Virus record (IMG/VR): IMGVR_UViG_3300030110_002853
Coordinates: 4,783 to 25,843 of that record
Reading direction: 5' to 3' (one strand)
Length of the DNA stretch: 21,061 nucleotides
DNA from: a virus
The notes under the pieces were generated by a model. That model did not search any database. It had not been told where the DNA came from and worked only from the letters and a program-made list of their open reading frames with translations. Positions 511 to 8,428 of this stretch are shown here, piece by piece (the stretch's first letter is position 1; every line of letters starts with the position of its first letter). Made by a program: the position numbers and the translations under genes.

Positions 511-542
511 TTGGAACTATTTAAAACAAGCCTAGTTATATA
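511..542 (+). promoter_or_regulatory. promoter-like element, copy A
   Basis: TTGGAACT at 511-518 is followed after a 19-base spacer by TTATAT (or TATATA one base on, 537-542). The block runs directly from the TAA stop of the preceding gene to the ribosome site AAAGGAG of the next. It shares a 14-base start, TAGTTATA at equal distance, and the TAAACAAAGGAGT leader with the copy at 1591. Promoter function is inferred from recurrence and position. The 19-20 base spacing is longer than the usual 17. Confidence 0.55.
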
Positions 543-563
543 AGTAAACAAAGGAGTAATACA

Positions 564-782
564 ATGAAACAAATAGAAGTAAACAATATCAGAAGAAAGG
601 CACTCCATTGGTGGAGGTCTTTAAATTCTGAGATGAAGAAAACAATGGTGCATAATCCATCAGTAAATAAATCTAGTTTTAATTCTGTTTCTTTGATGAG
701 CAAGTCATCACTACAAGTGCAAAGAATGTTTGAGAATTGGTTGACTTGGGAAATAAAAGGAGGTTCAAAAAATGAGCAGTAA
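564..782 (+). CDS. small hypothetical protein (72 aa)
   Basis: A short hydrophilic, basic protein that I do not recognise. It contains a WW pair near residue 16, a Ser-rich centre and a final helix-like stretch (residues 49-66). There is no signal peptide or membrane span. The start is well supported by AAAGGAG eight bases upstream, and the gene is the first behind promoter-like copy A. Its 3' end overlaps the next gene by 11 bases, with that gene's AAAGGAGG lying inside this one, so the two are probably translated together. Confidence 0.6.
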   Translation: MKQIEVNNIRRKALHWWRSLNSEMKKTMVHNPSVNKSSFNSVSLMSKSSLQVQRMFENWLTWEIKGGSKNEQ

Positions 783-1092
783 TAAATACAACGGATGGAC
801 AAATTACGAGACGTGGAACTTTAATTTGTGGATAACGAACGAAGAGTCAGATTACGAGTACGCTTTGGAACTTGCGGAAGATTCTGAAAACAAATACGGA
901 CTCAGTAAAAAACTAGAGGAGTGGGCAGAAGATATGGCTAGTGATGCATTGACATCATACGAATACACACATGGCTTTATAAAAGACATGGTGAATAGTT
1001 CTGTGGGAGAGGTCAACTTTTATGAGGTGGCTGAACATCTTTGGGAAGAGCGACAAGAGGCAATAAAGCAACATGATGGGGAGGAAGAGTAA
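772..1092 (+). CDS. YNGWTNYETW-family phage protein (106 aa)
   Basis: The N-terminus carries YNGWTNYETW (residues 6-15) followed by NLWITNEE, the signature of a conserved phage family of unknown function found in many tailed phages. The rest is acidic and helical, with several Trp residues (LEEWAEDM, EHLWEER) and an acidic end DGEEE. The protein is soluble, without membrane spans. AAAGGAGG lies seven bases before the ATG. The stop overlaps the next start as TAATG, so downstream translation is probably coupled. The family resemblance is firm; the function is not known. Confidence 0.75.
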   Translation: MSSNKYNGWTNYETWNFNLWITNEESDYEYALELAEDSENKYGLSKKLEEWAEDMASDALTSYEYTHGFIKDMVNSSVGEVNFYEVAEHLWEERQEAIKQHDGEEE

Positions 1093-1589
1093 TGCACATG
1101 ATAATAAGAAACATAGTCTATGCCAATTCTAAGAAAGAGGCACTTTCTGTGGCTAGGGAGAATTTCAAGAATCTATGTAAAGGACAGAGAATATTTGACT
1201 ACTACGATATGTTTGATGATGGGGGCAGTGCATACTGGGGTGACAGATGTCCCGAAATATCGCTTTTAAATAAGCCTGAAGGGCGTAAAATGATAGTAGA
1301 CGGATGGAAGGCTACCCTAAGAGATATGCGAGAGCATTTAAGAGAAATAAAAAAACTTACAGAAGGTAAGAAAGTTACAGAAGTCATGCGAGATATCAGA
1401 AAAGACTGGCTTCAGTATCGTTATCATTCTGTTGGAGAATACTATGGAAGTTCTGTTTGGTTGTACGACCACGATGCAGAGGGTATAAAGGATAGGAGAC
1501 ATCTTGACAATGCACTTAATAAATGGGATAATAATACAGAATATAAAGGCATGAAAGTTTATGTCGTACCCGCAGATGTACACTATTAA
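1092..1589 (+). CDS. conserved phage hypothetical protein (165 aa)
   Basis: Not assigned to a named family. Visible features are an acidic aromatic block around residues 35-50 (FDYYDMFDDGGSAYWGD), a charged helical centre (residues 75-115) that could form a coiled coil, and a C-terminal part with GSSVWLYDHDAEG and a final strand KVYVVP. The ATG at 1092 is chosen over the ATG at 1098 because GGGGAGG (1078-1084) sits seven bases upstream of the former. It overlaps the preceding stop by one base. The TAA stop abuts the second promoter-like element, so this gene probably ends a transcription unit. Confidence 0.65.
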   Translation: MHMIIRNIVYANSKKEALSVARENFKNLCKGQRIFDYYDMFDDGGSAYWGDRCPEISLLNKPEGRKMIVDGWKATLRDMREHLREIKKLTEGKKVTEVMRDIRKDWLQYRYHSVGEYYGSSVWLYDHDAEGIKDRRHLDNALNKWDNNTEYKGMKVYVVPADVHY

Positions 1590-1590
1590 A

Positions 1591-1622
1591 TTGGAACTTT
1601 TAATAATAAGTGTAGTTATAGA
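1591..1622 (+). promoter_or_regulatory. promoter-like element, copy B
   Basis: TTGGAACTT at 1591-1599, then TTATAG at 1616-1621 (or TATAGA one base on), with the same 19-20 base spacing as copy A. The flanking ATTAAA before it and TAAACAAAGGAGT after it are identical to copy A, while the middle differs. This is what two conserved contact boxes separated by a free spacer would look like. Confidence 0.55.
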
Positions 1623-1642
1623 GATAAACAAAGGAGTTTTAA

Positions 1643-2143
1643 ATGAATATATTTAAACTAGATGACTGCCCTCAGCGATCAGCAGAATTGCAACACGACA
1701 AGCACGTTGTAAAGATGATCTTAGAATCAGCACAGCTTTTGTGTGGTGCTTACGATACAGAAGATACACCACCTTACAAAAGGACACACTACAACCACCC
1801 TTGCTCAATATGGACAAGGACAAGCAGAGAGAATTATGAGTGGCTCATATCACACGCTATGTCTCTATCTTACGAGTACACAAGGAGATACGGCAGAGTA
1901 CACAAGTCACAAGCAGTGATAGAATGGTGTTCTGAGAATATAGACCTCATAGAATTTACTGATAGTGGATCTACGGAATTGCCTATGGCTATGCCAGACA
2001 AATATAAATCCGATAACGTAGTTACTTCTTACCAACAATACTATATTAATGAGAAGTTGAACCCGAAAACGGGTTGGAAGGCCAGAGGTGTACCTGAAAT
2101 ATTTAAAAACAAGATGGAACTTATACAAAGTGGGAGCGTATAA
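1643..2143 (+). CDS. DKHVVKM-family conserved phage protein (166 aa)
   Basis: It belongs to a protein family common in cyanophages and other tailed phages, recognised from the N-terminus MNIFKLD and the motif DKHVVKMILE (residues 19-28), then HYNHPCSIW (49-57), NYEWL (64-68), MPDKYK (117-122) and a final W-x-R-x-x-P. Some database members are labelled pyrimidine-dimer glycosylase-like, but I see no firm basis for that here and leave the function open. Conserved His, Cys and Asp residues would fit an enzyme or metal site. AAAGGAG lies before the ATG behind promoter copy B. The last codons contain another promoter-like element. Confidence 0.7.
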   Translation: MNIFKLDDCPQRSAELQHDKHVVKMILESAQLLCGAYDTEDTPPYKRTHYNHPCSIWTRTSRENYEWLISHAMSLSYEYTRRYGRVHKSQAVIEWCSENIDLIEFTDSGSTELPMAMPDKYKSDNVVTSYQQYYINEKLNPKTGWKARGVPEIFKNKMELIQSGSV

Positions 2144-2144
2144 A
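2114..2144 (+). promoter_or_regulatory. promoter-like element, copy D (inside a gene end)
   Basis: ATGGAACTT (2114-2122), 11 free bases, then GAGCGTATAA (2134-2143). The last ten bases and their distance to GGAACTT are identical to the intergenic copy at 4325. The TATAAA box (2139-2144) includes the TAA stop of the overlapping gene. It stands 33 bases before the next start at 2177. Promoter function is inferred. Confidence 0.5.
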
Positions 2145-2176
2145 TGCCATATCCAATGAAACAAAAGGAGAAACAA

Positions 2177-2419
2177 ATGATAACAGAACAAGACATCATA
2201 TTTGACAATCTATATGAGGACATAGCTATGAAACTAGACTCTATCTTAGATGAGGTCATAGCAGACATAGAGCATGACTGGGGAATCAAGCACGATATGA
2301 TGATGAAGATAGTGGAGACATGGTCTGTGGGGGTATCTGCAAGACTACCCCTTACAACTACTATAGATAAGAAAACAATGGAGTTACTAAAGAAAGAGGT
2401 GGAAAATGTTAATAAGTAA
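2177..2419 (+). CDS. small hypothetical protein (80 aa)
   Basis: An acidic, helical protein that I cannot assign. The frame is open from an ATG at 2144, but AAAGGAG (2164-2170) is six bases before the ATG at 2177, so the shorter form is preferred. The sequence has two helical blocks: residues 8-40 with many Asp/Glu, and the last 20. The ATG at 2144 would also begin inside the preceding promoter-like element. The gene overlaps the next one by 14 bases. Confidence 0.6.
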   Translation: MITEQDIIFDNLYEDIAMKLDSILDEVIADIEHDWGIKHDMMMKIVETWSVGVSARLPLTTTIDKKTMELLKKEVENVNK

Positions 2420-2738
2420 TTGTTGTGGATATGAAGTAAAGTATCACGATATATGCTCTAGTTGTCTAGAACATACTGATCCATACGAAGAGGAGGATGT
2501 TCAGGAGTTAGAGGACGAGTTGGAGAAAGAGGCTTTAGAGTGGGAAAGAAAGGATAGTGAGGAAGAAAGGGGTAGTACAGAAATAGAGCGAGGTATGGAA
2601 AGGATAAGAAACTTAATAGCGAACAAAGGTGTTGTGAATATTGACCATGATGACATCTGGGAGATATTTGGAATAACAGTTGAGTGCTTAGAGGGAGAGC
2701 CGACAACGGCTGATGAATTTAATAAGGAGGTAGAATAA
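2406..2738 (+). CDS. small acidic zinc-ribbon-like protein (110 aa)
   Basis: The N-terminus carries C6-C7 and C17-S-S-C20, spaced like the small zinc ribbons that begin many marine phage proteins (NCCG...C..C). After that comes a long, very acidic helical stretch (residues 27-60, mostly Glu/Asp/Lys/Arg), which could be a coiled coil or a DNA mimic, then a smaller folded end with IWEIFGITVECLEG. Function is unknown. It overlaps the previous gene by 14 bases and the next by one base (TAATG), so it is part of a tightly coupled operon. Confidence 0.6.
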   Translation: MLISNCCGYEVKYHDICSSCLEHTDPYEEEDVQELEDELEKEALEWERKDSEEERGSTEIERGMERIRNLIANKGVVNIDHDDIWEIFGITVECLEGEPTTADEFNKEVE

Positions 2739-2944
2739 TGAAAACAGCAATAATAAAAGTTAGATTGGCTTACGATTTTCCCGATGAAATGTCGATCAAA
2801 GAGATCAAGGAAAAAGTAGAGAATCTTGAACTGCCAAAGGAGTATGATGAGGATAGTTTTGAATGGCTTGGTATCTACGACAACGAAGATGAGTTCATAC
2901 CATATTATAAGTTCCCCGAAGAGTGTTATGAGGTAGAGGAATGA
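2738..2944 (+). CDS. small acidic hypothetical protein (68 aa)
   Basis: Begins with a strand MKTAIIKVRLAYDFP followed by an amphipathic helix (residues 18-31) and an acidic aromatic end (EWLGIYDNEDEFIPYY). This alpha/beta pattern is seen in several small phage proteins of unknown role. AAGGAGG precedes the ATG at a good distance, and the start overlaps the upstream stop by one base (TAATG). The stop overlaps the next start as ATGA. No family is recognised. Confidence 0.6.
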   Translation: MKTAIIKVRLAYDFPDEMSIKEIKEKVENLELPKEYDEDSFEWLGIYDNEDEFIPYYKFPEECYEVEE

Positions 2945-3327
2945 CATCAAAAGAATATGAATTTATGAGAGAGAAGTTTCTTTCAGAAACCTTAGAGCTT
3001 TCAGATGCCAAACGAATTGAGTATACTGAAGGGAATCACGAGACCAATGTATTATGGAACTTTGAACATATTGGGAAAACTTTGGGACTTACTCCCATGA
3101 AAGTGTTGTCTGTATATTTACAGAAACATATTAGTAGTTTATTGAACTACTTAAAAACAGAGAAAGAATATGCAGAGAGTATCGAGGGTAGGATAATGGA
3201 TATGATCAATTATCTTTTGCTCTTGCTCTGTATGATCAGAACATACAAAGGAGATAAAAATGAAACGATTCCTAAAAGCAATGGAACTGGTAACTCAACT
3301 AATACTGGGAAAGGAAGCGACATCTAA
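2941..3327 (+). CDS. DUF1599/Nmad1-like protein (128 aa)
   Basis: The core resembles the DUF1599 (nucleotide modification associated domain 1) proteins. It shows LWNFEHIGKTLGLTP (residues 38-52), a K-H pair in LQKHISS (60-66), and ESIEGRIMDMINYLLLL (79-95) with conserved Glu, Asp and Asn-Tyr. The fold is all-helical and related by pattern to MazG-like nucleotide pyrophosphatases, so a role in nucleotide metabolism is plausible but unproven. The last 20 or so residues are low-complexity (Asn, Thr, Gly, Ser). They coincide with an overlapping gene in another frame, so the functional protein may end near residue 105. Start overlaps the previous stop (ATGA). Confidence 0.6.
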   Translation: MTSKEYEFMREKFLSETLELSDAKRIEYTEGNHETNVLWNFEHIGKTLGLTPMKVLSVYLQKHISSLLNYLKTEKEYAESIEGRIMDMINYLLLLLCMIRTYKGDKNETIPKSNGTGNSTNTGKGSDI

Positions 3328-3379
3328 ACCTAAGAGGAAGAAAAGGAAGTATAAGAGGAGAGTGAGGAAGGCTAAGTAA
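3260..3379 (+). CDS. very basic 39-residue protein, overlapping gene
   Basis: A short frame lying partly inside the preceding gene (68 shared bases). It has an ideal ribosome site, AAAGGAG at 3247-3253, six bases before the ATG, and its TAA overlaps the next ATG as TAATG, which fits the operon's style. The protein has a short helix (residues 4-17) and a tail from residue 23 that is almost wholly Lys/Arg; 17 of 39 residues are basic. It probably binds nucleic acid or an acidic partner. No family is recognised, and translation is inferred from signals only. Confidence 0.6.
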   Translation: MKRFLKAMELVTQLILGKEATSKPKRKKRKYKRRVRKAK

Positions 3380-3618
3380 TGGATATTCTATACTACACAT
3401 GGGAACTATTTACGGCAGATGAAAAGAACGCTTGGTGGTTGATGATGGTGGTGTTTGCCTGTACCTGTATTACTTTTATATACACCAATGTAAAAATGCG
3501 GGTACACTTGGAAAAGATATCCAAAAAACAAAAGACCTTTTTGGTTGCCCTTTGGCTACTGGCTGAAGGCGAGAAGGACGAACTTCAATTAATGATGGAA
3601 CAGGAGGAGGAAGAATGA
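3379..3618 (+). CDS. single-span membrane protein (79 aa)
   Basis: A hydrophobic stretch at residues 19-37 (WWLMMVVFACTC then ITFIYTN) should span the inner membrane. It is followed by a basic helix (residues 39-53) and a very acidic tail ending EQEEEE. The first 18 residues would be the outer part if the positive-inside rule holds. It is directly coupled to the basic mini-protein upstream (TAATG) and to a second small membrane protein downstream (ATGA). Holin, spanin or superinfection-exclusion roles are possible, but nothing in the sequence decides. Confidence 0.6.
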   Translation: MDILYYTWELFTADEKNAWWLMMVVFACTCITFIYTNVKMRVHLEKISKKQKTFLVALWLLAEGEKDELQLMMEQEEEE

Positions 3619-3746
3619 TAGTGCTAGACCTTTGGGAATGGGTGGTGAACCTGTTCATCCTTTCGATGAGCTTCGTTACCCTTACAATGGTAATGTTCAT
3701 TGCCTGCTTGGTGGTATATACAATACAGGACTGGAGAGGAAAATGA
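3615..3746 (+). CDS. 43-residue membrane protein
   Basis: A short frame between two confirmed neighbours, overlapping both by four bases (ATGA at 3615-3618 and again at 3743-3746), with GGAGGAGG just upstream. Residues 8-36 are almost all hydrophobic (NLFILSMSFVTLTMVMFIAC), a clear membrane span, and the C-terminus is short and polar (QDWRGK). It forms a pair with the upstream single-span protein. Function is unknown; small paired membrane proteins in phages are often lysis or exclusion factors, but no lysin gene is present nearby. Confidence 0.6.
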   Translation: MIVLDLWEWVVNLFILSMSFVTLTMVMFIACLVVYTIQDWRGK

Positions 3747-4036
3747 AAGAATACATGGAGTTGCAGTTGGAAGTTCTGAGATATGAACAGATGGTGGAAC
3801 GAAGAGAAGAGAAGATAAAAAGATTACAGAGCGTGATCGCATCCCTAGACCCGAATGATTTACAGAGATTCAGGTGTTGGCATTGCGATTGTGAACTGAT
3901 CTGGGGTGGAGACCACGACATACAGGAAATCATACTAGACGAGGACAAGGAAGGTATCGCATCCAATTTTTCCTGTTCTAATTACGACTGCAACACTCAT
4001 GTTGAAGTATACCATTTTAGCCAAGAAGAAGAATAG
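3743..4036 (+). CDS. coiled-coil plus Cys-cluster protein (97 aa)
   Basis: Residues 1-35 form a strongly charged helix (likely coiled coil: EYMELQLEVLRYEQMVERRE). Residues 44-90 carry Cys residues as C45-W-H-C48-D-C50 and C78-S-N-Y-D-C83, plus His 86 and His 91, a probable zinc-binding module. The frame is open from 3632, but the ATG at 3743 is chosen because it overlaps the upstream stop as ATGA and has GGAGAGG before it. A DNA- or protein-binding role is likely in general terms; the family is not recognised. Confidence 0.65.
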   Translation: MKEYMELQLEVLRYEQMVERREEKIKRLQSVIASLDPNDLQRFRCWHCDCELIWGGDHDIQEIILDEDKEGIASNFSCSNYDCNTHVEVYHFSQEEE

Positions 4037-4038
4037 GC

Positions 4039-4323
4039 ATGGTAAAGTATACCCACAACCATAAAACGCCGTTAGAAGCAAAGGTAATGCTCTTATTGGG
4101 TATATGTGGGGCAAGACCTAGTGAGTTCAGTTATCATAACTGGGGAGACAATAGAACTTTAAGATGGAAAGAAGGTAAAAGGATAGGTAAGGATGTCAGG
4201 GATTATGTGAAGATGGTTTTTGTTGGGGAACACGATCAGGTTCTGAGATTCGCTGAATTTATGTATCGAGACCGATTAGACAAGCGATGTTACAAATATA
4301 TTATCGCCCCTCTAAAAAATTAA
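4039..4323 (+). CDS. small basic hypothetical protein (94 aa)
   Basis: A basic soluble protein that I do not recognise. It begins with YTHNHKTPLEAKVMLLLGICGARPSEF in two pieces: a polar start and a hydrophobic helix (residues 12-24). Later parts are rich in Arg, Lys and Tyr (FMYRDRLDKRCYKYI), so nucleic-acid contact is possible. The start lies two bases after the preceding stop with only a weak GAAGAAGAA site, suggesting re-initiation. Its TAA abuts promoter-like copy C. Confidence 0.5.
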   Translation: MVKYTHNHKTPLEAKVMLLLGICGARPSEFSYHNWGDNRTLRWKEGKRIGKDVRDYVKMVFVGEHDQVLRFAEFMYRDRLDKRCYKYIIAPLKN

Positions 4324-4324
4324 T

Positions 4325-4355
4325 TTGGAACTTTTTGAAACCTAGAGCGTATAAT
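4325..4355 (+). promoter_or_regulatory. promoter-like element, copy C
   Basis: TTGGAACTT (4325-4333), 11 free bases, then GAGCGTATAAT (4345-4355), giving a perfect TATAAT box 19 bases after TTGGAA. This is the best -10 match among the copies and lies in a 62-base gap right after a stop codon, with about 30 bases to the next start at 4386. It shares GAGCGTATAA with the copy at 2114 and TTGGAACTT with that at 1591. Confidence 0.6.
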
Positions 4356-4385
4356 GGGAAACGGCACACACAAAAAGGAAAACAA

Positions 4386-4694
4386 ATGGACACACAATTA
4401 AAACAAGTATTAGAAAAATCGCCACCGCTAGACTGGGGAGATTCTTATCATCTTAGATATGATTCTTTAAAGAATTACATAGAGGATTTAGAACATCAGT
4501 TGTACTGGTTCAAAGAAGAGAGAATGGTAGAGGAGGCTAAGGATGGATACGAACTTGTAAAAAGGTCTAATGTCAAGCAAAGCACATTAGATAGCTACAA
4601 AAAAGAATATAAAGATGTGCAGTTAGAGTACGGACAACTAAAGAAACATTTAAAATACATAAACAAACAAAGGAGTAATAATGAAATTAACTAA
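4386..4694 (+). CDS. coiled-coil hypothetical protein (102 aa)
   Basis: Mostly helical and charged. Residues 25-60 (YHLRYDSLKNYIEDLEHQ onward) and 70-95 look like coiled-coil segments. The frame is open back to 4287, but AAAAAGGAAAA lies before the ATG at 4386 and the longer form would read through promoter copy C, so 4386 is chosen. No family is recognised. The gene's end contains the ribosome site of the next gene and overlaps it by 14 bases. Confidence 0.6.
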   Translation: MDTQLKQVLEKSPPLDWGDSYHLRYDSLKNYIEDLEHQLYWFKEERMVEEAKDGYELVKRSNVKQSTLDSYKKEYKDVQLEYGQLKKHLKYINKQRSNNEIN

Positions 4695-4875
4695 TGAACA
4701 AAAAATAGAATTGCAAAGATTGCAGTACGATCCTTGCGACAGGCACTTGAACATATACCCCGAAGACTTTAGGGGAAGTATCTGGAAAGAAGTTTTACAG
4801 TGCTTAGGCATTGATGATTGCTACGGGGTTACTCTTGCTGTCGTTGGAATCAAAGAGGAATTTGAGGAGGAGTAA
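4681..4875 (+). CDS. small acidic hypothetical protein (64 aa)
   Basis: A compact acidic protein starting with a helix (TNEQKIELQRLQ), a Cys-containing centre (DPCDRHLNIYPEDF), CLGIDDC at residues 41-47 and an acidic end EEFEEE. No known domain. The ribosome site ACAAAGGAG seven bases upstream copies the leader found behind promoters A and B (AACAAAGGAGTAATA). The stop overlaps the next ATG as TAATG. Confidence 0.55.
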   Translation: MKLTNEQKIELQRLQYDPCDRHLNIYPEDFRGSIWKEVLQCLGIDDCYGVTLAVVGIKEEFEEE

Positions 4876-5045
4876 TGAAATCATACCATTGGACAATAAC
4901 TGCTAGTGGGTTTATAGAAGCACACTCACTTGGAGAAGCAAAGGAGAAGCTGAAAGAAGATGCTATTGGGTATATCATAGATGATGAGAAATACTGGGAG
5001 TTTGAGGTTGAAGATTCTTTACCATACGAAGAAGAAGAGGAGTGA
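4875..5045 (+). CDS. 56-residue acidic hypothetical protein
   Basis: Short frame starting MKSYHWTITASGFIEAHS with a strand, then a helix (residues 18-28, LGEAKEKLKED), a second strand and a tail of Glu residues (YEEEEE). The strand-helix-strand pattern fits the small phage proteins that begin with a strand followed by an EAH(S)LxEAxEK-type helix. GAGGAGG precedes the start, which overlaps the preceding stop by one base. It is the last gene before a 69-base gap. Function unknown. Confidence 0.55.
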   Translation: MKSYHWTITASGFIEAHSLGEAKEKLKEDAIGYIIDDEKYWEFEVEDSLPYEEEEE

Positions 5046-5066
5046 TGTCAGGATATAGTTAAAGAT

Positions 5067-5088
5067 TTTAGTGGCATAAGACACTAAA
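5067..5088. other. short inverted repeat in intergenic gap
   Basis: TTTAGTG (5067-5073) and its exact complement CACTAAA (5082-5088) flank an eight-base loop, in the 69-base gap before the HNH gene. No T-run follows, so it is not an intrinsic terminator. It could be an operator or an RNA processing site; a chance AT-rich repeat is also possible. Confidence 0.35.
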
Positions 5089-5114
5089 TATCAATAACTT
5101 AAAGGAGTAGTTGA

Positions 5115-5639
5115 ATGTTAAAGAGATGTAGTAGATGCAAACACGAAAAGCCCAAGAGGGACTTCTATGTCAATAGGCAGAAGCATGATGGTAGACAGAC
5201 CACATGTAAAGTATGTCAAAGAGAATATCATAATAAACGATGGTACAAAGGGAACAGAGAAAAAAGAATTAAAGACATGAAGGAAAGAAAGCGGAGATTG
5301 AGGGATGAGAACTACGAGAAGATATTGTATTTGTATTTTATAAAGGGGTGTGTTGACTGCGGTACAAGAGACCACCGAGTTCTGGAGTTCGACCATGTTA
5401 AGGGAATCAAGAAGAAATCATACAAGACAGAGGGCATATCCTACATGGTCAGGAATGGATATAAGTGGAGTACGATCAAGCGAGAAATAGAGAAGTGTGA
5501 GGTTCGCTGTCGTAACTGTCACAAGATAAGAACCTATAAACAATACGGTTATTATAAAAGTTTAAGAGGGATGATAAAAGAATATGAAAAGAATATGGAA
5601 CTTACTGATAGTAAGAGGCGTTATGAGTGTGTAACATGA
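5115..5639 (+). CDS. HNH endonuclease with N-terminal zinc ribbon (174 aa)
   Basis: An HNH-type DNA-cutting enzyme. An N-terminal ribbon has C5-x2-C8 and C31-x2-C34 (TTCKVCQREYHN). The catalytic region shows C79-x2-C82, then LEFDHVKGIKKKS with D93-H94, and ends with KCEVRCRNCHKIRTYKQ (C132, N134, C135, H136), the normal spacing of phage HNH proteins of the CxxC/FDHV/CxNCH class. It is very basic throughout, as expected for DNA binding. AAAGGAG precedes the ATG. Free-standing genes of this kind are often homing endonucleases, and the gene sits alone between a hairpin-bearing gap and a promoter-like element, which fits insertion; packaging-type nicking is the alternative. Confidence 0.85.
   Translation: MLKRCSRCKHEKPKRDFYVNRQKHDGRQTTCKVCQREYHNKRWYKGNREKRIKDMKERKRRLRDENYEKILYLYFIKGCVDCGTRDHRVLEFDHVKGIKKKSYKTEGISYMVRNGYKWSTIKREIEKCEVRCRNCHKIRTYKQYGYYKSLRGMIKEYEKNMELTDSKRRYECVT
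5595..5626 (+). promoter_or_regulatory. weak promoter-like element, copy E
   Basis: ATGGAACTT (5595-5603), 11 bases, then GAGGCGTTATGA. This is close to GAGCGTATAA of copies C and D at the same distance, with an extra G and a poor TTATGA box. It lies in the 3' end of the HNH gene, just before the next start. It may be a decayed copy or chance. Confidence 0.3.
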
Positions 5640-5842
5640 AAGAAACAACATTTAATAAAGAACTTCAAGATTCACTTAAAGTGAGGTATGAGTATCATGG
5701 CTTCAATGGCGAAGAGCATGTGCGAGTACCGATCATGTACGATCCGAAGACTGGATTCACCTATGATACTGGAGACCTATACGACATAAAAGGAGACGAT
5801 GATGTTCAGTGTATTGAGCAAGTTAAAGTACAGGATAAATAA
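5627..5842 (+). CDS. small hypothetical protein (71 aa)
   Basis: A small acidic beta-type protein (VRYEYHGFNGEEHVRVPI, then YDPKTGFTYDTGDLYDIKG) with no recognised family. Two starts are possible: GTG at 5627, eight bases after AAGAGG, and ATG at 5636, which overlaps the HNH gene's stop as ATGA but lies 17 bases from that site. The first is given; the difference is only three residues. The 3' end overlaps the next gene by 44 bases, and AAGGAG for that gene lies within it. Confidence 0.5.
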   Translation: MCNMKETTFNKELQDSLKVRYEYHGFNGEEHVRVPIMYDPKTGFTYDTGDLYDIKGDDDVQCIEQVKVQDK

Positions 5843-6044
5843 AGACATACAACAGGCAGAGGAGCAGTGGGACAACAACCCGAACAATGACTATTACTTT
5901 GCTGAGATATGTGGATTAAGGCGTGCCCTTGAGCATATAATAAGGGCAGAGGCGGGAGAGCTCACAGCCTTAGATAAGTGGGCAGAACAACAACAAGGAA
6001 AGGAACAACATGCAACTACAACTAGGAACAGGGCAGGAAGTTAG
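5799..6044 (+). CDS. small helical hypothetical protein (81 aa)
   Basis: Mostly helical and polar. A conserved-looking core AEICGLRRALEHIIRAEAGE (residues 35-54) is followed by a Gln-rich tail (EQQQGKEQHATTT). AAAAGGAG sits five bases before the first of two adjacent ATGs. It overlaps the preceding gene by 44 bases and the next by 35 bases, unusually long for this operon, so the C-terminal Gln/Thr tail may be a by-product of the overlap. Function unknown. Confidence 0.5.
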   Translation: MMFSVLSKLKYRINKDIQQAEEQWDNNPNNDYYFAEICGLRRALEHIIRAEAGELTALDKWAEQQQGKEQHATTTRNRAGS

Positions 6045-6213
6045 TATTCATAACGTAGAATCCATATCCGTGGAAGAAACCAACGAATACTTTTCTCACA
6101 GCCAAAAGAATAAATATTTTAAAACTATATATATTAAGACAGCATCGGGAGAGACAATAGAGATAACTCTGTTCTCAAGCGATAAGAGTGTCTTAGACTA
6201 TCAAGCACAATGA
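6010..6213 (+). CDS. small beta-rich hypothetical protein (67 aa)
   Basis: Alternating hydrophobic strands (MQLQLGTGQEVSIHNVESI, YFKTIYIKTASGETIEITLFS) suggest a small beta-barrel or sheet domain. No family is recognised. AAGGAAAGG precedes the ATG. It is the last gene before the 108-base gap that holds a nested hairpin, so it probably closes the left gene block. Confidence 0.55.
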   Translation: MQLQLGTGQEVSIHNVESISVEETNEYFSHSQKNKYFKTIYIKTASGETIEITLFSSDKSVLDYQAQ

Positions 6214-6321: not shown

Positions 6322-7050
6322 ATGATAGACATACAAAAAGTATATGAGGACTGGTTGCGTAAAGGCAACGACCTCCATAGAAAGAAAAGGTATCAAGGTA
6401 AAGAAGAATGGTTTCATGCATCGTCTGCGGGGATGTGTATGAGAAAGCATTACTTCCAACATGTAGCAGATGTAGAGCCAACTGAGATAGATGACAATAC
6501 TATGAGGTTGTTTCGACTTGGAGATCTTGTACATGGTGACATACAGGAAGCACTGATGGATTATGCAAGGATTAATGGTTCTCAGATAATGATAGAGCGT
6601 GAGATACGATTGCCTGATGTAAACGTAAGGGGTTTCCTAGATGTTATTATTGTTGAAGATAACGCCCTGTACGATATTAAGACCTGCAATGCTTGGAAGT
6701 GGAAAGGCTTGTTTGGTCGTAACCCAGACCCTAACCCATCTGTTAACTATAATATACAGCTAGGCACATACGGTTGGTGGTTTGAAGAAGAAACTGGGAA
6801 CAAATTAAAGAAGTTGTCGTTACTCTATTATAACAAGGACAATTCAAGGATGAAAGAAAAAGTAATACCGACATCATATATACAGAAAGCAAAAGAGTAT
6901 TGGTACGATGTCAAAAAGATATTTGAAACAGGTAATCCACCCATAGAGTTAGGAGTAGCTCCCGTATATAAATGGGAGTGCAACCCTAAGTATTGCAACT
7001 TCTATCAGATATGCGGAGGTGGATACAAAGAGAAAGGAGTCGACTTATGA
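6322..7050 (+). CDS. Cas4/RecB-like PD-(D/E)XK exonuclease with Fe-S cysteines (242 aa)
   Basis: Probable DNA exonuclease of the Cas4/RecB/AddB nuclease type. In order: SSAGMCMRKHYF with C39, H71 in GDLVHGD, D107 in GFLDVI, D118-I-K120 in YDIKTC, and Q146-x3-Y150 in IQLGTY (the RecB motif). The C-terminus has C220, C225 and C231 (WECNPKYCNFYQIC). One early and three late cysteines are the arrangement that holds a 4Fe-4S cluster in this family. Length is typical. It would trim DNA ends to expose single strands for recombination or replication. AAAGGAA lies before the ATG. It heads the operon and its stop overlaps the next start (ATGA). Confidence 0.85.
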   Translation: MIDIQKVYEDWLRKGNDLHRKKRYQGKEEWFHASSAGMCMRKHYFQHVADVEPTEIDDNTMRLFRLGDLVHGDIQEALMDYARINGSQIMIEREIRLPDVNVRGFLDVIIVEDNALYDIKTCNAWKWKGLFGRNPDPNPSVNYNIQLGTYGWWFEEETGNKLKKLSLLYYNKDNSRMKEKVIPTSYIQKAKEYWYDVKKIFETGNPPIELGVAPVYKWECNPKYCNFYQICGGGYKEKGVDL

Positions 7051-7466
7051 GCGACAAACAACCCGATTGGGATAAGATAACAGAAGGTAAGATACGGCAC
7101 GGTGTTGCTGTGGAAGCCTTTAGTAAGGGCATGGAACTTAATAAGGAGAACGCAAAGCTGATAGAGCAATGGGTTCAATTCATTATACATGGATATGATG
7201 GTATCAATGCCATACTTGAACAAGCACAGAAAGACAATAAATCCCTGTCAGATAGCGAGATAGAGGAAGAGATAATGGAGAAGTTTGACGGTGAGGTGGT
7301 AAAAGAAACTGACGATGAATACATTAAGAAGGAGATAGAAAAGGCTATAAAGACACTGGGACAGAAAGACAAGAACAAGGTTTTGTATCAGTTAAAAGAG
7401 GGAAGGATAACCCTTGATAATCTTCAGGCTTGTCTTGATAAGATAGGAACAATGAAACATTTCTAG
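7047..7466 (+). CDS. hypothetical protein of recombination operon (139 aa)
   Basis: A charged helical protein: DWDKITEGKIRHGVAVEAF near the N-terminus (residues 7-25), an acidic middle (SEIEEEIMEKFDGE) and a basic C-terminal helix (KDKNKVLYQLKEGRITL). The frame opens at 6993, but the ATG at 7047 has AAAGGAG seven bases upstream and overlaps the nuclease stop as ATGA, so it is chosen. Translational coupling to the exonuclease suggests a partner or accessory DNA-binding protein. I recognise no family. Confidence 0.6.
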   Translation: MSDKQPDWDKITEGKIRHGVAVEAFSKGMELNKENAKLIEQWVQFIIHGYDGINAILEQAQKDNKSLSDSEIEEEIMEKFDGEVVKETDDEYIKKEIEKAIKTLGQKDKNKVLYQLKEGRITLDNLQACLDKIGTMKHF

Positions 7467-7946: not shown

Positions 7947-8428
7947 TGGATATACTTACAGAAAAAGGACAGGCATCGCTTCGTTATGAAAGAGAAATGC
8001 TAGACCGCATAAGACATTCTATATGTGCCGAGCATAAAAAAGGTTCTTATATCTTCGAGACGGATAAGGACATGGATGCAAAGGTAGATGGTATGATCGT
8101 GAAAGACGATCAGGTTACAGGAATATTTGAATCAAAGTGTAGGGACATGAGCATGATGGAACTTATAAACTATGGTTCTTGGCTTGTTACATTTGATAAA
8201 ATCATGGATGGCAAGCGTCTTTCAGAAATGTTACGAGTTCCCTATCTCGGATTTTTATACCTTATAAAAGATAAGATAATCATGTACTGGAAGATAACTG
8301 ATAAGTATGGGAACTTTTTATTTGACTTTGACGTTAGAAATACAAGAACACAAAAAACAATTAATGGTGGTAGTATCATAAGAACAAATGCATATCTACC
8401 GTTTAAAAAAGGGAATGAGTTATTATGA
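7946..8428 (+). CDS. PD-(D/E)XK nuclease-like protein (160 aa)
   Basis: Second nuclease of this operon. E17 lies in the first helix (YEREML), D48 in DAKVDGMIV, and E62-S-K64 in GIFESKCRD, a complete D...ExK active site on consecutive strands. The later part (YLGFLYLIKDKIIMYW, FDFDVR) fits the remaining strands of the fold. Likely an endo- or exonuclease or a junction resolvase for phage DNA. The start overlaps the preceding stop as TAATG without a clear ribosome site, so translation probably depends on the upstream gene. The stop overlaps the next start (ATGA). Confidence 0.7.
   Translation: MDILTEKGQASLRYEREMLDRIRHSICAEHKKGSYIFETDKDMDAKVDGMIVKDDQVTGIFESKCRDMSMMELINYGSWLVTFDKIMDGKRLSEMLRVPYLGFLYLIKDKIIMYWKITDKYGNFLFDFDVRNTRTQKTINGGSIIRTNAYLPFKKGNELL

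Follow-up and report, generated by a model that had tools for sequence, protein, structure and literature searches.

The window considered here, i.e. the whole stretch of 21,061 nucleotides corresponding to bases 4783-25843 of a 25,843-base IMG/VR virus record, carries a series of small rightward genes extending to about 10.1 kb, followed by large structural genes in leftward orientation. Related contigs of about 40-44 kb exhibit divergent arms, presumed early (+) and late (-), together with terminase, portal, endolysin and capsid-type genes, a gene set that shows them to be tailed phages. A Cas4-like exonuclease, encoded at 6322-7050 in the window, is common to more than 30 contigs with 54-100% identity. 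Among cultured phages, a near-DNA search gave no close match and protein searches with the exonuclease and the portal gave none, the TerL and capsid proteins matched at only about 25%, which gives no host, and scans of GTDB with the portal and TerL found no relative. Within the rightward block, the protein encoded at 1643-2143 bears a Pyr_excise (pyrimidine dimer glycosylase-like) domain and has relatives in many cyanophages as well as in Vibrio and Acinetobacter phages. Regarding assembly, a run of ten N at G000:4773-4782, G000 being the record itself, lies just before window base 1 and represents a scaffold gap, so that the ORF at the left edge of the window may be broken. Besides, another contig (G041, L217-L219, 56,959 bases) harbours two structural gene sets, each with its own terminase and portal (about 30% alike between the sets), and therefore results either from chimeric assembly or from the joining of two phages.

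Five copies of a bipartite promoter-like module, hereafter A to E, are present on the + strand, where they would serve the rightward small genes at 564-6213. All five had been listed in the original prediction, with boxes beginning at 511, 1591, 2114, 4325 and 5595, that is two bases before the GGAACT found at 513, 1593, 2116, 4327 and 5597. Putative promoter A (511-548) associates GGAAC (513-517), 16 intervening bases (N16) and AGTT(ATAT) at 534-541; it is preceded by a stop codon at 507-509, and its predicted start near 545-548 lies upstream of the ORF 564-782. Putative promoter B (1591-1628), with GGAAC at 1593-1597, N16 and AGTT(ATAG) at 1614-1621, would have the Pyr_excise-like ORF 1643-2143 as its downstream target. 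Copy C (2114-2151), with GGAAC at 2116-2120, N16 and CGTA(TAAA) at 2137-2144, overlaps the 3' end of this same ORF; as ATG 2144 stands upstream of the start predicted for C, the next gene likely begins at ATG 2177, which has AAAGGAG as ribosome site. Orthologues of C, reading GGAACTTATAACAACAAGGAGCGTATACATGCC, occur in G011, G012 and G017, with one close variant in G029. Copy D (4325-4362), composed of GGAAC at 4327-4331, N16 and CGTA(TAAT) at 4348-4355, is located upstream of ATG 4386 and has near-identical copies in many relatives. As for copy E (5595-5633), it falls within the 3' end of the HNH ORF 5115-5639, upstream of ATG 5636, and combines GGAAC at 5597-5601, N17 and CGTT(ATGA) at 5619-5626. 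Two further copies are found in the same record just upstream of the window, at G000:3951 and, as a GAAAC variant, at G000:4438.

Other traits of these copies were also as predicted, since A, B and D begin one base after a stop codon (ORFs ending at 509, 1589 and 4323, respectively), C and D have the stretch GAGCGTATAA in common, and A and B carry the same leader and ribosome site, with 83% identity over 53 nt including AAACAAAGGAGT (546-557 for A and about 1626-1637 for B, both on the + strand). The likeness of A and B is consistent with the duplication of a promoter-leader unit, which would fit with a mobile cassette. A third copy of the leader and ribosome site, TAAACAAACAAAGGAGTAATA at 4656-4680, resembles those of A and B and has no GGAAC/CGT promoter before it.

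Which bases make up the module had to be revised. The 19-base spacing presented as fixed applies to C and D only, the distance from TTGGAA to TATA being 20 nt in A and B, and it arose because TTGGAA and TATA were picked as the boxes. In the window, the invariable arrangement is GGAAC-N16-[CA]GT[AT] in A to D, with N17 instead of N16 in E. Neither does TATAAT hold as the -10 element, the conserved -10 core being [CA]GT[AT] at N16/17; the variants CGTTTAATAAG, AGTTAGATAAG and CGTTACAT are devoid of TATAAT, and a further natural variant, AGTTACATAAG, has lost TATAAT and kept [CA]GT. As natural variants drop TATAAT yet keep [CA]GT, the element is to be written GGAAC-N16/17-[CA]GT[AT], and a parse centred on TATAAT was dropped, [CA]GT being the fixed part.

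In line with the enrichment in relatives that the original prediction called for, the motif is present in more than 30 related contigs of about 40 kb, on one strand and in the rightward small-gene block. If everything that follows the seed [TG]GGAACTT is considered, with no further requirement, G and T emerge at offsets 22-23, counted from the first G. Considering the 169 unique sites for [TG]GGAACT on the + strand of the early block (34 contigs), 107 are followed by [CA]GT[AT], at N16 for 89 of them and at N17 for 18, with just 0-2 sites at each of the neighbouring spacings N13-15 and N18-20 and a flat distribution elsewhere; for the late block and the opposite strand, the spacing histogram is flat or empty. 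With a loose core, the N16 and N17 counts amount to 150 and 25, vs. 0 and 1 on the opposite strand. Over 187 kb, the early + strand has 130 occurrences of the seed [TG]GGAACTT and the minus strand has 4. A -35 box with AAC, i.e. GGAAC, is present in all five window copies and in 104 unique [TG]GGAACTT sites of the early + strand. In the -10 core of the 107 paired sites, GT is fixed and the first base is C in 59 and A in 48 (AGTA/AGTT).

With a scoring matrix derived from 68 sites of relatives, from which this contig and a near-identical one were left out, A to D are the four best matches in the window (16.7, 15.5, 22.6 and 31.8 bits, respectively). In a dinucleotide-shuffled control (200 replicates), the best score on a 21-kb strand averaged 5.8, with a 95th percentile of 13.2 and a highest value of 16.5, and no site of the minus strand of the window exceeds 8 with the same matrix. 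Copy E had been described as weak, which is borne out by a score of just 2.9 with this TATAAT-weighted matrix but not by its core: 29 of 31 relatives retain it at the 3' end of the HNH gene, in more than one reading frame and with offsets from the stop codon that range between -52 and +34. In diverged relatives this core reads GGAACAAATCAGTAAACGATGCGTTACAT or GGAACAAAGTAAAAAGTAGTGCGTATAAG, without TT after GGAAC. Copy E separates the core from the A/T-rich decoration and, as it is kept despite the shifted offset and frame, coding conservation is ruled out as the whole cause.

That the module could be something else than a promoter, namely a conserved element of DNA or RNA, such as a site for replication, recombination or processing, or a mere outcome of coding conservation, might be suggested by the overlap of C and E with coding sequence, and by GGAACTT also being part of the sequence coding for the conserved words WNFNLW and LWNFE, where the second box is lacking. 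This is very improbable, considering that the predicted starts lie at a median of 33 nt from the ribosome-site ATG downstream, vs. 177 nt for random early-block positions, that the HNH-end copy persists through changes of frame and offset, that both halves and their spacing match a known promoter class, and that no Rfam family is found in the window. The confinement to one strand and the proximity to starts with a ribosome site uphold the part of the original prediction that saw a bipartite promoter-like module serving the left block, its 19-base spacing and TATAAT -10 having been given up. At 8310-8340 of the window, a GGAAC-N17-CGTT located in a conserved coding stretch (YGNFLFDFDVRN) and kept in several relatives is probably a case of coding conservation.

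The motif appears quite restricted in distribution. An IMG/VR-wide scan with TTGGAACTT-N14-CGTATAAT returned 24 stretches, and 2 with the same halves at N12; among the 19 records examined from these two scans, 9 encode the exonuclease of the clade and several of the others are short fragments. Close to 80 loci from phages that are for the most part unrelated, amounting to 1.16 Mb and read on both strands, display no N16 peak, and CRP-810, Kuura and CRP-5, which are cultured but distant relatives, have no excess of the motif at N16/17. Three good GGAAC-N16-CGTA sites lie on one strand of a large, tRNA-rich contig from an unrelated phage (G038, 101,743 bases), at about 19617 in L202 and about 3212 and 3764 in L204; another phage may use this type of promoter.

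Regarding the sigma factor involved, many copies display TATAA directly after [CA]G, and GGAACT-N17-TATAAT corresponds to an ideal sigma70 geometry, as would be the case for sigma70 promoters with a TATAAT -10 in which a phage activator takes over from, or assists, the non-canonical -35 (GGAACT, 17 bases away), as at T4 middle promoters. Set against the TTGACA -35 and TANNNT -10 of sigma70 promoters, however, the module has GGAAC at -35, TANNNT is found in only 32 of the 107 sites, and 34 of the 107 have T at the second -10 position, where A is normally invariant. Moreover, the spacing to TATA drifts (17, 18 or 19) whereas the spacing to [CA]GT stays at 16/17, and [CA]GT remains fixed throughout, including in CGTTACAT, AGTTACAG and CGTTTAAT, which altogether makes a sigma70 promoter of this kind quite improbable. 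In the left block, sigma70-type sites show no enrichment (24 vs. 30 in shuffles). Upstream of the block, the divergent intergenic region begins with a canonical promoter, TTGACA...TATATATT, which is conserved in relatives (L157:1660-1720 in G000); then come long TAGTATATATAGTA-type repeats as well as a structured-looking leader, and this region may constitute both an early promoter and a replication origin. At L157:3660-3770, upstream of the first promoter of the contig, three tandem copies of a unit of about 35 nt (ATAACTACTTAACGAAGGTAACTCATTCTTTT) are also present. The coexistence of sigma70-type and ECF-type promoters side by side is what one would expect of a block started by sigma70 and boosted by another sigma.

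AAC at -35 and CGT at -10 are the hallmark of promoters recognised by ECF sigma factors, the -35 of RpoE being GGAACTT (PMC8103513), and EcfG promoters correspond to GGAAC-N16-CGTT with a flexible -10 (PMC7083833). Judging from the motif and its spacing, the copies are probably tandem ECF (group 4) sigma-type promoters used by the host RNA polymerase, most likely with the host's own stress ECF sigma. Two features count against an ECF sigma, namely the many copies with a good TATAAT after the G, which such a sigma does not need, and the A at the first -10 position (48 of 107), which differs from the textbook ECF base. In the phages of the clade, profile searches with Sigma70_r2, r4 and r4_2 gave nothing over the cut-off, the weak partial matches to r4_2 (13.5-15.5 bits) being nearly all inside a giant late-block protein. 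Similarly, phrog_1740, a phage ECF-like sigma family, was found in 0 of 19 clade contigs, while phiEco32 and 7-11, serving as controls, were both detected (E<1e-39); a T7-type RNA polymerase model had no match in the phages and was silent in the control genomes as well, which deprives this negative of any weight. As no phage sigma is recognisable, a host ECF sigma would be the simplest reader of these promoters, and the use of a divergent host sigma factor, one of the two options offered by the original prediction, is now the best one, with promoter function, the ECF sigma and its host origin all being inferred from sequence.

As the main alternative, the ECF-type promoters could be read by a phage-encoded protein, either a highly diverged sigma or a sigma-appropriating protein comparable to gp36 of phiEco32 or gp47 of Salmonella phage 7-11. 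There is a precedent in the late promoters of 7-11, which are bipartite, GTAAtg-(16)-aCTA, and depend on a phage sigma just 15% identical to its phiEco32 homologue (PMC8948821). Since known phage sigmas are barely detectable with Pfam, where they score just 18-26 bits, a very diverged phage factor is possible; many early genes belong to no known family and the motif is specific to the clade, which is also what a phage factor would predict. This alternative is rather unlikely, given that the three Pfam profiles and phrog_1740 all remain below cut-off, though the latter detects both known examples, and that a universally conserved early protein of 139 aa (7047-7466) matches no PDB structure or sigma-like fold, its model being poor with a low pTM.

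Phages usually start on the host sigma70 and then change promoter use via their own factors, and a host stress sigma is normally held off by an anti-sigma. Under recognition by a host ECF sigma, the conserved TTGACA promoter would start the block via sigma70, and the ECF-type promoters repeated along the early/middle gene block of this single clade of tailed phages of about 40 kb would then boost expression gene by gene. At each of them, the host RNA polymerase with an ECF-type sigma would bind GGAAC at -35 and melt the DNA at [CA]GT[AT], and transcripts would begin a few bases downstream, just before the ribosome site of each gene. We tentatively propose that the clade, which has no recognisable sigma of its own, runs its early/middle programme on a host stress ECF sigma, stress induced by infection or already existing switching on about 5-9 tandem promoters. 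If true, a host stress sigma would act as a switch for phage expression and the outcome of infection would be tied to the stress state of the host. The host of this uncultured clade should then own an ECF sigma reading GGAAC/CGT, which could help in host inference, and the motif would provide a precise promoter rule for annotating the viruses of the clade. In the literature searched, whose coverage is incomplete, no description was found of a host ECF sigma acting on phage promoters.

Compared with known systems, the module is similar to alphaproteobacterial EcfG promoters in its identical -35 core and same spacing, and in part of the sites in its CGTT/CGTA-like -10, the -10 of EcfG promoters being documented as flexible (PMC7083833); the host of the phage may not be an alphaproteobacterium. 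The module differs from them by its location in a phage early block, by a first -10 base that is either A or C and by an extra TATAAT-like tail. The -10 of Escherichia coli RpoE (sigmaE) promoters is of the GTC/TC type, whereas that of the phage module is [CA]GT[AT]. Their -35, GGAACTT, is identical (PMC8103513). The promoters dependent on 7-11 gp47 and phiEco32 gp36 also form a phage promoter class with several copies before phage genes, and those of 7-11 have the same bipartite form with a 16-base gap (PMC8948821). The 7-11 sequence is GTAAtg...aCTA, however, and these promoters drive late genes, unlike the early/middle block of this clade; furthermore, these two phages encode a sigma detectable with phrog_1740, whereas no such sigma was found in this clade. 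T4 middle (MotA-dependent) promoters likewise recur in a phage and have an upstream box that is non-canonical. This box, the MotA box, is TTGCTTA-like with its centre at -30 and is accompanied by a sigma70 TATAAT, whereas the module described here has GGAAC at -35 and its TATAAT is dispensable.
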